Shown here one piece after another: positions 5,481 to 9,788 of a stretch of DNA of 64,000 nucleotides (positions within the stretch are counted from its first letter, which is position 1; every line of letters starts with the position of its first letter). The stretch spans positions 1,116,001-1,180,000 of the forward strand of contig JARFXR010000002.1 in NCBI GenBank assembly GCA_029194535.1, written 5' to 3'. The position numbers were made by a program, and so were the translations under genes. Origin of the DNA: Nitrospira sp. (GTDB taxonomy: Bacteria; Nitrospirota; Nitrospiria; Nitrospirales; Nitrospiraceae). The notes under the pieces are model-generated. The model worked only from the letters and a program-made list of their open reading frames with translations, searched no databases and was not told the origin of the DNA.

Positions 5481-6260
5481 ATGCTATTAGAGGGGAAAAA
5501 AGGATTGGTCGTCGGCGTCGCCAACAAGCACAGCATCGCCTGGGCGATCGCCCAGTCAGCCGCAGGCCAGGGGGCTCGGCTCATGTTCAACTATCAAAAT
5601 GAGCGTCTCAAAGAGAACGTCGAGGAATTGGCCGCCACCATGCCGGGCGCTAAAGCCTTTCCCTGCGATGTCGGCGACGATGCGCAGATCTCCGCTCTGA
5701 TGCAGCAAGTGCAAAAAGAGGTCGGCACCCTCGATTTCCTTGTCCACTCGGTCGCCTTTGCTCCCCGGGAGGAACTGACCGGTCAGTTCGTCAACACCAC
5801 GCGACAAGGGTTCGCCACCGCTCTGGATGTCAGCGCCTACTCCCTCGTGGCCGTAACGAGAGCGGCGTTGCCGCTGATGACCAACGGCGGCTCGATCGTC
5901 ACGCTCACCTATCTCGGCGCCGAACGGGTGGTCCAGCATTACAACGTGATGGGCGTCGCCAAGGCCGCGCTGGAATCGACCGTTCGCTACCTCGCGCACG
6001 ACCTGGGTCCCAAGAACGTACGGGTCAACGCCGTCTCCGCCGGACCAATCAAGACGCTTGCCGCTCGCGGCGTATCCGGCATCAGCAAGATGGTCGATCA
6101 TCACAAGGAGTTTGCTCCGCTCCGCCACGCCACCGAGCAGGGAGAAGTGGGCGACACCGCGCTCTTTCTCATCAGCCCGCTCAGCCGGGGTATTACCGGA
6201 GAGGTGATCTACGTGGACGGCGGCTATCATATCCTGGGGTCGCTGGTCTCAATGGAGTAG
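5481..6260 (+). CDS. fabI: Enoyl-[acyl-carrier-protein] reductase (NADH)
   Basis: 259 residues, the normal FabI size, from the ATG at 5481 (AGGGGAG upstream). The frame is open to 5412, but that extension has no family match. It is a divergent short-chain dehydrogenase: the nucleotide-binding segment LVVGVANKHSIAWAIAQ is at residues 9-25, and the catalytic Tyr144, Tyr154 and Lys161 (TYLG and YNVMGVAK) have the FabI Tyr-x6-Lys spacing. It reduces trans-2-enoyl-ACP in the last step of each fatty-acid elongation cycle and is the triclosan/isoniazid-type target. It is the last core gene before the mobile patch. Confidence 0.95.
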   Translation: MLLEGKKGLVVGVANKHSIAWAIAQSAAGQGARLMFNYQNERLKENVEELAATMPGAKAFPCDVGDDAQISALMQQVQKEVGTLDFLVHSVAFAPREELTGQFVNTTRQGFATALDVSAYSLVAVTRAALPLMTNGGSIVTLTYLGAERVVQHYNVMGVAKAALESTVRYLAHDLGPKNVRVNAVSAGPIKTLAARGVSGISKMVDHHKEFAPLRHATEQGEVGDTALFLISPLSRGITGEVIYVDGGYHILGSLVSME

Positions 6261-6301
6261 CTTGGCCCCCTCGGCGGATGCCTCGCTTCTTCGACAAGTC
6301 G

Positions 6302-6330
6302 CGCCGCAGGGCGCCTGCGCCTGAGGCGTA
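6302..6330. repeat. 29-base dispersed repeat, copy 1
   Basis: CGCCGCAGG-GCGCCTGCG-CCTGAGGCGTA matches 54327-54355 at 26 of 29 positions. It is partly self-complementary (GCAGG/CCTGC). It lies immediately beside the displaced arfB 3' end, at the left edge of the accessory patch. Confidence 0.5.
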
Positions 6331-6338
6331 AGCAGCAC

Positions 6339-6446
6339 TCAATCGATCGTTCGCCCGAGCGCTTTCAGTCGCCCTCGTTTCGTCTTGCTCTCCAACCGCC
6401 GCTGTGTTGAAGTCCTGGTGGGTTTCGTCGGTTTTCGTTTCTTGCT
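6339..6446 (-). pseudogene. Displaced 3' end of a second arfB
   Basis: Read on the minus strand, 35 codons plus a stop encode [33 protein letters not shown]. This aligns without gaps to the C-terminal tail of the intact arfB at 7602 ([33 protein letters not shown]). No GGQ domain precedes it, so it is a remnant and not a gene. The two copies differ at about a quarter of positions and bracket the DUF433/DUF5615 pair in the same orientation. This is the arrangement left when an element integrates into, or recombines at, the 3' end of a gene. Confidence 0.75.
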
Positions 6447-6496
6447 CGAAATGGTTCTGAAAAAGGTGCCCGTACATCGCGGCAGAACTCTTGCGT

Positions 6497-6865
6497 TTAC
6501 CGAACCAGGGGAAGAATGCGTGACCGGAGCCGTGCCTCATCGACCGTGATAAGAGCTCCTTGCTGGAGGATTACCTCATGTTGCCGAAGAGCCCGAACAA
6601 TCAGATCAGCCAGATGTTCAGGGCTTACATCCTGCGCCCGCATTTGAATAACGCTTGGAGCTGCTGCCTGCGAAATCGCAAGGATGGCGCCAAAATCCAA
6701 ATCGTTGGTGAACACCACATACTCATTCTCCCGTGCCCACCCCATAATCACAGAATCTGAAGCCCTCCCGTCGCCGACAGACGAGCAGTGGATTGCCGAA
6801 AAGCCGTGGCGTTCAAGAGCTGACACCCATGAGGGCGACAGATTCATATCAACGAGAATTTCCAC
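6497..6865 (-). CDS. DUF5615 PIN-like toxin
   Basis: 122 residues of the DUF5615 (Mut7-C/PIN-like) family. It begins EILVDMNLSPSWVSALERHG, with Asp6 in the first acidic position, and has FTNDLDFGAIL (Asp55, Asp57), the second acidic cluster of PIN-type nucleases. Proteins of this family pair with DUF433 proteins and are regarded as VapC-like toxins that cleave RNA. The start overlaps the end of the DUF433 gene by 22 bases, a normal toxin-antitoxin coupling. The target is unknown. Confidence 0.85.
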   Translation of the reverse strand: MEILVDMNLSPSWVSALERHGFSAIHCSSVGDGRASDSVIMGWARENEYVVFTNDLDFGAILAISQAAAPSVIQMRAQDVSPEHLADLIVRALRQHEVILQQGALITVDEARLRSRILPLVR

Positions 6866-7092
6866 GTGGACGCCAGAGGAATCTCAATCTCCTCAGCACG
6901 CCAGGCCGCGTAGGAAAGAGCCGCTGAAATGTCAGGCTCTTCCAGGTATGGGTACAGCTTGAGAATCTCTTCGTTCGATCGGCCGGCCGCGACCAAACCA
7001 ACGATGGTCCCAACTGTCACCCGCAGCCCCCGAATACAAGGTTTACCACCCATAACTTGGGGGTTGGTCGTAATCCGTGTAGCCTTGTTCAT
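6844..7092 (-). CDS. DUF433 antitoxin
   Basis: 82 residues of the DUF433 family: ITTNPQVMGGKPCIRGLRVTVGTIVGLVAAGRSNEEILKLYPYLEEPDISAALSYAA. The first half is a helix-turn-helix-like DNA-binding unit and the C-terminal tail (EEIEIPLAS) is expected to bind the toxin. It is first in the pair, as expected of an antitoxin that also represses its own promoter. The 510-base region upstream, back to arfB, holds the candidate recombination half-site at 7142-7173. Confidence 0.85.
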   Translation of the reverse strand: MNKATRITTNPQVMGGKPCIRGLRVTVGTIVGLVAAGRSNEEILKLYPYLEEPDISAALSYAAWRAEEIEIPLASTWKFSLI

Positions 7093-7601
7093 ATGAACAC
7101 CGCCGTCACGAACATGGATTATCGCTCCCGCTCTTGTGGAGGGCTAACTTTACGAGTGTGCTGCAGATTACCGATGTTGCATTGCAAGGCAGTCTCAGCG
7201 AGGTGACGCGAGCAAGTCAAGTGCAAACCCATCGGCTTAGCAATCACTGTGTCCGGCGTCCCCCACCTACAGAGGAGGCGGCAGCCGATGTTACGATCCG
7301 CCCGCAAGATATCGGCCGACGAGTCATGGCAGCGGTGGCTGTCAATGCGTCGTAGGGCTGGAACACCAGCACGCTCCAAGTGCTTCAGCTCGACCGCTCA
7401 GCGGCTCGTCGAGACTCAGTTGCGGAACTCGTTCCGTTCCGAGCTTCGCTGAACGGAACATCGAACAGTCCTCACTGTCGCTTCGCGACCGTCTCTCCTT
7501 GCCGGTGCGGGACCCGAGCTTTCGCACAAGTCGCGTGCTCGGCATTCCAGCCCTGCCAAGCCCAGCAAGGCCCAGATCGACATCACCCACGCAAGTCGTG
7601 T
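7093..7601. other. Non-coding stretch between antitoxin and arfB
   Basis: No credible gene is seen in 509 bases. It holds the attC-like half site at 7142-7173 and three consecutive perfect hairpins: 7389-7413 (CTCGAC/GTCGAG with inner CCGC/GCGG), 7431-7459 (GTTCCGTTC/GAACGGAAC) and 7477-7489 (GTCGC-TTC-GCGAC). The hairpins suggest a structured RNA or remnants of a mobile element, but nothing identifies which. Confidence 0.5.
7142..7173 (-). repeat. attC-like recombination half site
   Basis: On the minus strand this reads CGGTAATCTGCAGCAC, nine bases, GTTAGCC. It closely matches the site at 9116-9146 (CGGTAGCCTGCAGCAC ... GTTAGAC). Both lie just upstream of a cassette-like gene start. GTTAGCC resembles the R' box of integron attC sites, where the GTT triplet is conserved. 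I cannot find a matching R'' half, so this is at most a partial or decayed site. Confidence 0.4.
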
Positions 7602-8012
7602 CTACTCCAGCGTTCGCCTCAGAGCTTTCAATCGTCCACGTTTGGCCTTGTTATCCAGCCGCCGCTGCTTTGAAGTCCTGGTGGGTTTTGTCGGTCTTCG
7701 CTTCTTGCGTGGCACTGCCACGCTTTGAATGAGGGCTCGCAGGCGACCCAACGCCTCTTCGCGATTCTGCTCCTGGCTGCGATGCTCCTGCGCCTTAATC
7801 GTGATCACGCCGTCGTCTGAAATACGGTGATCCTTCAGCTTGAGCAGTTCCTGCTTATAGAACGGCGGCAACGAAGACGCGCCGATATCGAAGCGCAGAT
7901 GAATAGCCGACGATACTTTGTTGACGTGCTGCCCCCCGGCCCCCTGCGACCGCACCGCATGGATCTCGATTTCAGAGTCGGGGATGATGACATGGGAGGA
8001 GATGTGAAGCAT
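7602..8012 (-). CDS. arfB: Alternative ribosome-rescue factor ArfB (YaeJ type)
   Basis: 136 residues, close to E. coli YaeJ (140). The release-factor GGQ loop is at 26-28 within [23 protein letters not shown] linker is followed by the basic C-terminal tail ([24 protein letters not shown]) that enters the empty mRNA channel. ArfB hydrolyses peptidyl-tRNA on ribosomes stalled without a stop codon. There is no anticodon-recognition domain, which separates it from RF1 and RF2. Its 3' end is partly duplicated at 6339-6446, and an attC-like site lies upstream at 8151-8224. Confidence 0.92.
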
Positions 8013-8150
8013 GGAGCTATGTAACGCCTTTTAACCTATTAACCTCTGACGATTCTCAGACAGGTACCGAGTCAACCTCTGCGGCGAAAGCATGATAGGC
8101 TTCCCCGTCAGCGAAGAAATCAACCGCCACAGTCATGGCTGCTCTGTAGT

Positions 8151-8224
8151 GGCTAACGCGCCGCTTCAGCTGCGGGTGGCTCACAATGGTACCAGCCGCC
8201 GTCGGCTGCGGTCGGAAGTTAGAC
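8151..8224 (-). repeat. Integron-type attC site after mrr
   Basis: A 74-base imperfect palindrome. Read on the minus strand it starts with GTCTAAC (8224-8218), a match to the R'' consensus RYYYAAC, and ends with GTTAGCC (8157-8151), an R'-like box; the two boxes pair at 6 of 7 positions. Inner segments also pair: CAGC with GCTG, and GGCGGCT with AGCCACC (6 of 7), leaving a centre of about a dozen bases. The mrr stop codon TAA is the TAA of GTCTAAC, as is common in gene cassettes. No integron integrase is in the window. Confidence 0.6.
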
Positions 8225-9100
8225 CACATCCTTGGCGAACTGGCTGAAGAACGATTCGTCGAGTTCGTAGGTCCGCTTCGGCTTCAGGCCGAGCTGAAGT
8301 TCCTCAAGCATTCCAGCCAACTTCTCGCCATCAACCAACTCGATTGGAGGGGCACCGTCTCGAACGGCCTCTTTGCGCGCTTCCGACGTGAACGAGCCGG
8401 TTGTGATGATGATGCCCTTATCGGCACGGCCCGTCATCGCGCCACGGAAGTCTCGCACTTGGCTCGGGGAAACAGAACCCGTGTACTTCTTGCACTGGAA
8501 CAGGACCTTGAAGCTTACGAGCGGGTTGACCTGGAGAATACCGATGCCGTCGATGCCGCCATCCCCTGAACGTCCCGTGATGGTCACTTCCTGGAACCCC
8601 GATTCTCTGAGGAGGCGTTGACAGAATCGCTCAAAGCCCGATGCCGGAAGATCCTGCAGTGTTCGAGCCAGCTCCTCGCGATAGTTTCCGACGATTGGTA
8701 CGGTGCCAGTTACACTGGGTGCTGCATCAATATCGTCGACGGCTGCACCCCTTGTCCGTGCATTGACCTCTTGAACAATTGAGATGATGTCGGTGTCGCT
8801 TACGTCACCAAGCTGCCGGCCCTTGTCGGTGAGGGTCCAAACACCCCGCTGCGATGAATCGATGTATCCGGCCTTGGCAAGATAGAACCTAGCCCAATGG
8901 ACCTGATTCTCGAATCGAGTTTGAACCCCGGAGGGCAGTGGTTCCGACTGCTCCGCTTCCGAAATGCTCAGGCGACGAGCAATGACAGCCCGAACCTCGT
9001 CTGGCCGTCCTGATCCGCCCAATTCCCGGACTGCGGCAATCACAGGCCCGAGGTAGCGGGCGAACCGCGAGGCCACCTTCTTGCTCTCCTTCGGAGGCAT
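8219..9100 (-). CDS. mrr: Mrr-type restriction endonuclease (type IV)
   Basis: 293 residues. The N-terminal winged-helix region (about 10-105, Mrr_N: VRAVIARRLSISEAE ... VHWARFYLAKAGYIDSSQRGVWTLTDKGRQ) reads DNA. The C-terminal Mrr catalytic domain (about 145-270) has the PD-(D/E)xK variant GDGGIDGIG (Asp184) and FQCKKY (Gln202, Lys204). Such enzymes cut DNA carrying foreign methylation. The start is 16 bases after a GTTAGAC box and the stop lies inside an attC-like site, so the whole gene has the shape of a mobile gene cassette. No methyltransferase is nearby, consistent with type IV. Confidence 0.9.
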   Translation of the reverse strand: MPPKESKKVASRFARYLGPVIAAVRELGGSGRPDEVRAVIARRLSISEAEQSEPLPSGVQTRFENQVHWARFYLAKAGYIDSSQRGVWTLTDKGRQLGDVSDTDIISIVQEVNARTRGAAVDDIDAAPSVTGTVPIVGNYREELARTLQDLPASGFERFCQRLLRESGFQEVTITGRSGDGGIDGIGILQVNPLVSFKVLFQCKKYTGSVSPSQVRDFRGAMTGRADKGIIITTGSFTSEARKEAVRDGAPPIELVDGEKLAGMLEELQLGLKPKRTYELDESFFSQFAKDVV

Positions 9101-9115
9101 GTCTCCCTTCGGTCG

Positions 9116-9146
9116 GTCTAACTATCAAATGTGCTGCAGGCTACCG
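9116..9146 (-). repeat. attC-like half site upstream of mrr
   Basis: On the minus strand: CGGTAG-CCTGCAGCAC, eight bases, then GTTAGAC, an exact match to the R' box GTTRRRY. It lies 16 bases before the mrr ATG and is similar base by base to 7142-7173. It would be the left boundary of the mrr cassette. A complete palindromic partner to the right is not visible. Confidence 0.45.
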
Positions 9147-9310
9147 TGCGGCATAGCACTGCTGCCTAAGTAGTCCAAGAGGAAGCAACACTACCTGAAC
9201 ATCCAACACTTGTTCAATATTGGTCCTGTTCAGCCGGTCGGGATAGATGGCGAACGTGCAGTCTACCCGCCTATCAGCTCACAGCATATCCGGATTCTTA
9301 GCCAACCATC

Positions 9311-9528
9311 GGCTGGGCCGCTTCCCTGCCGACGTTGCCGCAGGAACCGGGACTCACCGAGACTCTTCCGGGAAGGAAGGCTGGAACTGACCAAGGCACC
9401 GCGATCCGTGATCGCGGCCGCGGGAATTCCAGAAGGTCGGCGCCGAAATCTACGGCGGCGAGAATTCCACCCGGAAGAGTCCGGGAGGGTGGTTCCGGGA
9501 GGCAGGAAGGCAGGGAAGCAGCCCAGCC
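9311..9528. repeat. 218-base nested imperfect palindrome
   Basis: Outer arms 9311-9330 and 9509-9528 pair at 19 of 20 positions (GGCTGGGC and GCTTCCCTGCC blocks). Inner arms 9361-9372 and 9470-9481 (GACTCTTCCGGG) pair at 12 of 12. Near the centre CCGCGATC-CGT-GATCGCGG (9399-9417) is a perfect 8-bp hairpin, and GGAATTC/GAATTCC flanks a further stem. There is no coding potential. It resembles a MITE-like or cruciform element and lies between mrr and the next conserved gene. Confidence 0.75.
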
Positions 9529-9563
9529 CTGTCATTCAGAAATTCGTCAGGAGCTGCTAAGGA

Positions 9564-9788
9564 TTATTGCAACTCCGGCAGGCGATCAATAATACGGAGC
9601 CTGACCTCGTCACCCACCTGCATCTGCACCATCTTCGTGGTGAGACTCGTCTTCACTCGCTGAGCATCCTCCAGCTTGAACTGGACTTGCCCGCCGCATT
9701 GTTCAACGAGATGAAACAACAGCAGGGTCGTCAATCGCTGGAGCTCGTCGTCAGACGTATGCTCGCTCAGGTTCAAGATTTGAGACAT
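9564..9788 (-). CDS. Small conserved-looking hypothetical protein
   Basis: 74 residues from the ATG at 9788 (MSQILNLSEHTSDDELQRLTT...), ending IIDRLPELQ. The frame is open for a further 62 codons upstream, but that part overlaps the 3' end of the PLP enzyme gene and looks non-coding. The product is soluble and helical at its start, then beta-like (GGQVQFKLED, VQMQVGDEVRLRI). I do not recognise the family. It follows the PLP enzyme gene by 130 bases on the same strand. Confidence 0.6.
   Translation of the reverse strand: MSQILNLSEHTSDDELQRLTTLLLFHLVEQCGGQVQFKLEDAQRVKTSLTTKMVQMQVGDEVRLRIIDRLPELQ

Follow-up and report, generated by a model that had tools for sequence, protein, structure and literature searches.

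Locus and gene content

The window, by which we mean the whole 64-kb stretch of DNA analysed (G000:C2:1116001-1180000), belongs to a genome of 3.98 Mb in five contigs, and we infer from gene content and from relatives that the host is a member of the Nitrospiraceae. In the region studied the gene order is fabI (plus strand), a duplicated 3' fragment of arfB, a DUF433/DUF5615 pair, arfB, mrr, a small unnamed gene (9564) and an aminotransferase gene. A search of 9050-9600 revealed neither a promoter nor a terminator of consensus type. The features referred to below are the following:

6497-7092, minus strand, toxin-antitoxin-like DUF433/DUF5615 pair (Pfam)
7139-7218, minus strand, second attI-like site, decayed, before the DUF433/DUF5615 pair, with the box GTTAGCC at 7142-7148
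8056-8156, minus strand, possible truncated second cassette, proposed from position only, with a 26-codon ORF (8056-8136) that starts 14 nt past the R' box
8151-8224, minus strand, attC of the mrr cassette, 74 bases, with R'' at 8218-8224 and R' at 8151-8157
8157-9121, minus strand, predicted mrr cassette unit, 965 bp for a G/TT cut, beginning with TTAGAC (5') and ending with the G of R' (3')
8219-9100, minus strand, mrr, type IV (modification-dependent) restriction endonuclease of 293 aa, ORF intact
9116-9291, minus strand, attI with leader, 176 bp directly before the mrr cassette
9308-9340, minus strand, possible scrap of the intI C-terminus (RQRRQGSGPAD against RGRRGVDSPAD), doubtful

The product of mrr carries both domains of an Mrr-type type IV restriction enzyme, with Pfam scores of 110.7 bits for Mrr_cat and 88.1 bits for Mrr_N, and it matches the PADLOC model mREase_IV at 85.7 bits. 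Known enzymes of this type have the same two domains, intact; the one in the window differs from them in being borne on a cassette, as set out below. Its closest relatives, at about 78% protein identity, are from Acidobacteria, and comparison of mrr with one acidobacterial copy (L109) gave a dN of 0.163 and a dS of 1.80, which is near saturation, for a dN/dS of about 0.09. Judging from the intact ORF, the two domains and this purifying selection, Mrr is probably still active against foreign DNA as a modification-dependent restriction enzyme. Homologues of mrr occur in 15 of 147 genomes of the family, the window's genome counted, the rest at 58% identity or less; homologues at 54% identity are in records of Nitrospira sp. 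The gene was not found in any of the six congeners searched.

mrr has the anatomy of a gene cassette

The first-pass annotation had read mrr as an integron gene cassette from the sequence at its two ends, and the boxes were found as it had named them. The stop codon TAA (8219-8221) lies inside GTCTAAC (R'', 8218-8224), which opens a 74-base palindrome that runs from 8224 to 8151 on the minus strand and closes with GTTAGCC (R', 8151-8157), one mismatch away from GTTRRRY. The exact GTTRRRY box that it had noted before the ATG, GTTAGAC (9116-9122), is also present, although it ends 15 bases from the start codon and not 16.

A single gene here ends at an attC of its own orientation, with R'' at the stop codon. 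The 5' box is complementary to the cassette's own R'' at seven of seven positions, and R'' agrees with the 3' R' at six of seven. Known arrays show 131 of 140 matching positions between R'' and the 5' box of the same cassette, as against 123 of 140 between R'' and the adjacent R', so that the mrr site follows the pattern of real arrays. Full anatomy was defined as an exact 5' box at most 40 nt from the start, an exact R'' at the stop and, at attC distance, an R' with no more than one mismatch. It was found at one ORF of at least 80 aa in the window, that of mrr; the homologous loci of relatives, about 53 kb in all, contained none. The 26 residues encoded by the truncated ORF (8056-8136) had no Pfam match.

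The palindrome alone is weak evidence, because the 74-mer folds no better than usual as plain single-stranded DNA (z = -0.68); folds of two GTTAG flanks were uninformative. With the plain fold unremarkable, a proper attC test was therefore needed.

An attC covariance model finds one site in the window

Integrons are common in the family: the integron-integrase model TIGR02249 detected intI in 26 of the 147 genomes at an E value of 1e-30 or better, with 15 above the curated cut-off. The attC model R1 was trained on 21 sites taken from Nitrospiraceae integron arrays at intI loci, none of them from the window's genome; the stems of these sites covaried strongly, with a score of 0.409 compared with 0.149 in shuffles. 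Across the 64-kb window R1 gave a single significant match, at 8151-8224 on the minus strand, covering its full length in the orientation of mrr (23.8 bits, E = 0.0038), while the next distinct place scored 9.6 bits. This covariance-model search, with R1 as the model, favours the reading of the first-pass annotation.

At genome scale 23.8 bits corresponds to an E value of about 0.2, and with so modest a score the model result alone is insufficient to settle the cassette reading. On the window's genome R1 gave 54 and 41 bits beside the broken intI on C1, plus weaker sites elsewhere; the mrr site was not listed in the genome-wide scan, in which 150 of 2,758 first-look candidates were scored. Compared with close attC sites, the 5' arm of the mrr attC has lost about 3 nt, and this shortening may have left the site weak or inactive.

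attC sites accompany Mrr genes in other records

Nucleotide homology to the acidobacterial contig L109 (73%) extends from 9087 to 8155. It takes in mrr and the complete attC and stops within the GTT of R', so that its 3' limit (8155) falls at the recombination point; its 5' limit, where it fades at 9087 within mrr, is uninformative. The attC of L109 is weak (17.7 bits), yet by alignment it is homologous to that of the window and stands at the equivalent place. With L109 counted, matches to the attC model directly adjoin seven Mrr homologues besides that of the window, and the six others are significant (L111, L112, L113, L115, L141 and L150; 24.5 to 58 bits). L111 and L112 have equal score and flanks and are perhaps one sequence; in L113 the mrr homologue sits in an array of five consecutive attC. 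As an integron cassette, a type IV restriction enzyme appears across phyla: the records concerned carry the labels Acidobacteria, Planctomycetota and Nitrospira's family.

The proposal that mrr is a cassette is therefore borne out by the attC-model match, by the complementarity of R'' and the 5' box and by the end of the L109 homology at the R' cut site, with further support from the attC sites beside other Mrr homologues and from the absence of mrr in congeners.

An attI site directly before mrr

The 176 bp before the cassette (9116-9291) align with the sequence immediately following the intI stop codon in three integrons that carry an integrase (L098, L088 and L075), at 68.5-71% identity over 168-178 nt (E = 6e-21 to 2e-18). 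Up to GTTRRRY, about 30 copies in the family follow the consensus AGGCTcCCGTGCTATGCTGCACGGGtAGCCTGCAGCAGACTTAATA; beyond that box their sequences are unrelated. This places mrr in the position of a first cassette. An attI thus stands at the start of the array, as in a complete integron; an intI beside it is lacking. The slot gave no intI match, in line with the first-pass statement that the window has no integrase, a doubtful scrap at 9308-9340 aside. The scrap stands at the place expected, just before attI (tblastn, 6 of 11 residues identical, E = 0.17), and is only suggestive of an intI remnant.

A second, decayed attI-like site (7139-7218) is 68.7% identical to the attI of L088 (E = 0.003). 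It precedes the DUF433/DUF5615 pair, which is perhaps a former cassette; no attC was detected after the pair when 6250-9600 was scanned with the model. The repeat that precedes both mrr and the DUF433 gene had been considered as a degraded attC half or an attG. This was rejected, the attC model giving no score, and comparison with integrase-bearing integrons identified the repeat as attI instead.

In the attI of the family (L088 9415-9620 and about 30 copies in other loci), an imperfect inverted repeat immediately precedes the core box and a longer palindrome directly follows the intI stop codon; many copies have no neighbouring integrase. A conserved RNA-like stem in attI was considered and set aside: the inverted repeat is present, covariation is weak and RNAalifold does not predict the stem.

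The slot in relatives

The gap between arfB and 9564 measures 1,551 bp in the window and about 105-375 bp in six other genomes (G001, G002, G004, G005, G006 and G010), so that the slot is variable among relatives. In G003, of the same genus, the slot spans 3.4 kb and has an attI of the same type followed by other genes; the attC model detected no attC there. The genes after attI in G003 (L042 2659-5113), named by eye, are lipoprotein-like, VOC-like and BrnT/BrnA-like. In G017, of another genus, attI is followed by an ORF with its stop inside R'' and by an attC of 25.7 bits. A single slot whose content varies beyond attI is as expected for an integron.

Origin of the element

We conclude with high confidence that 8056-9291 (minus strand) is the remnant of a chromosomal integron, comprising attI and, as first cassette, mrr with its attC, from which the integrase gene has gone. 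The anatomy and the place where homology ends suggest that IntI inserted a circular mrr cassette at attI, cutting between the G and TT of the core boxes. The integrase gene of the slot would then have been lost, leaving the cassette fixed unless IntI acts from elsewhere. The search of the full genome for intI that the first-pass annotation recommended did return a best match, but a frameshifted one. Since the slot has no integrase and the genome's best intI is broken, the present-day mobility of the mrr cassette is doubtful, and it is probably fixed today.

In a different history, attI and its cassettes would have arrived or spread together, lacking their own integrase and served by an IntI elsewhere. 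The distribution of attI invites this idea. The L088 type is present in 46 of the 147 family genomes, several times in some, and most copies examined have no intI homology within about 1.5 kb of flank. Eleven such copies, the window's included, are nevertheless followed by an attC that points the same way, and in many copies homology starts no more than about 45 nt past the intI stop codon. On the wider form of this idea, the Nitrospiraceae would hold non-autonomous integrons, of attI and one or a few cassettes, at several slots and served in trans, the mrr island being one of them. We consider both forms unlikely. Repeated loss of intI would give much the same picture and is the simplest account of the copies without intI; a shared outer boundary or transposition signature is not demonstrated; and the best intI of the genome, besides being frameshifted, has an attI of another type. 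The recurrence in the family of attI islands that lack an integrase is the less expected part of these results. The mrr locus indicates that attI sites can outlive their integrase.

The first-pass annotation had left the choice between an orphan cassette and the remains of an array, having missed the attI directly before mrr. For the former, IntI acting in trans would have put mrr at a non-classical, attG-type site in a slot that never held an integron. Such insertion is a published route (Loot 2024, doi 10.1038/s41564-023-01548-y, as cited in PMC12901181 and PMC11023631), and a slot with a single attC and no integrase would suit it. It is nevertheless very improbable, as the match to the attI of integrase-bearing integrons covers all 176 bp before mrr, well beyond a short core box, and the same attI lies at the slot in G003 and G017; the remains of an array are what the evidence favours. 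That an ordinary spacer resembling attC lies by chance beside an ordinary, horizontally acquired mrr would fit the modest model score and the unremarkable fold, but can practically be dismissed, because a homologous attC travels with mrr in L109, attC adjoins other Mrr genes and attI lies at the other end of the cassette.

Relation to known elements

Phage-defence cassettes are established in chromosomal integrons (Darracq 2025, Getz 2025 and Kieffer 2025, as cited in PMC12444791). In those integrons, as at the mrr locus, attI is followed by a defence gene with its attC, and the defence genes were reached through cassette exchange. The mrr locus is unlike them in having no functional integrase, one recognisable cassette, a host from the Nitrospiraceae and a lone Mrr-type enzyme. 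Integron-borne phage defence is thus already known, and the mrr cassette is a further instance, which adds to those described in Vibrio and Xanthomonas. A literature search on Mrr and integrons, of partial coverage, found no paper describing Mrr as a cassette.

Clusters of attC sites without an integrase, termed CALIN, are taken as degraded integrons (IntegronFinder 2.0, PMC9024848), and two have been reported in Nitrospira inopinata (PMC9024848). The mrr locus likewise has attC and no neighbouring integrase. It falls outside the CALIN class, which calls for at least two attC without an integrase (the IntegronFinder 2.0 default), because one significant attC is found at the slot; it also keeps attI, which the definition of CALIN does not consider. 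With cassettes inserted at attG sites the locus shares a position in the chromosome outside a complete integron. The attG class, however, concerns non-classical sites that are neither attI nor attC, and here the insertion site is a recognisable attI with leader, attI-like over 176 bp. Searches that require intI or two attC would miss the mrr element and similar ones in the Nitrospiraceae.

Other integron traces and repeats

The 3' part of arfB is present twice, at 6343-6445 and 7606-7708 (82.5% identical), and the extra copy lies between fabI and the DUF433/DUF5615 pair. Taken with the attI-like site at 7139-7218, this suggests that the slot was duplicated in tandem. Two dispersed repeats (7356-7552 and 9328-9436) have many copies across the family, and the latter occupies the place where an intI next to attI would be expected.

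A second decayed integron lies in the same genome (L008 9250-12706; G000:C1:1021249-1024705), with the frameshifted intI, an attI of another type and cassettes whose attC score 54 and 41 bits. Scattered attC-like sites are found at G000:C1:266681-268561, C2:423992-425756 and C1:1535370-1535432, the first pair beside an intI scrap.
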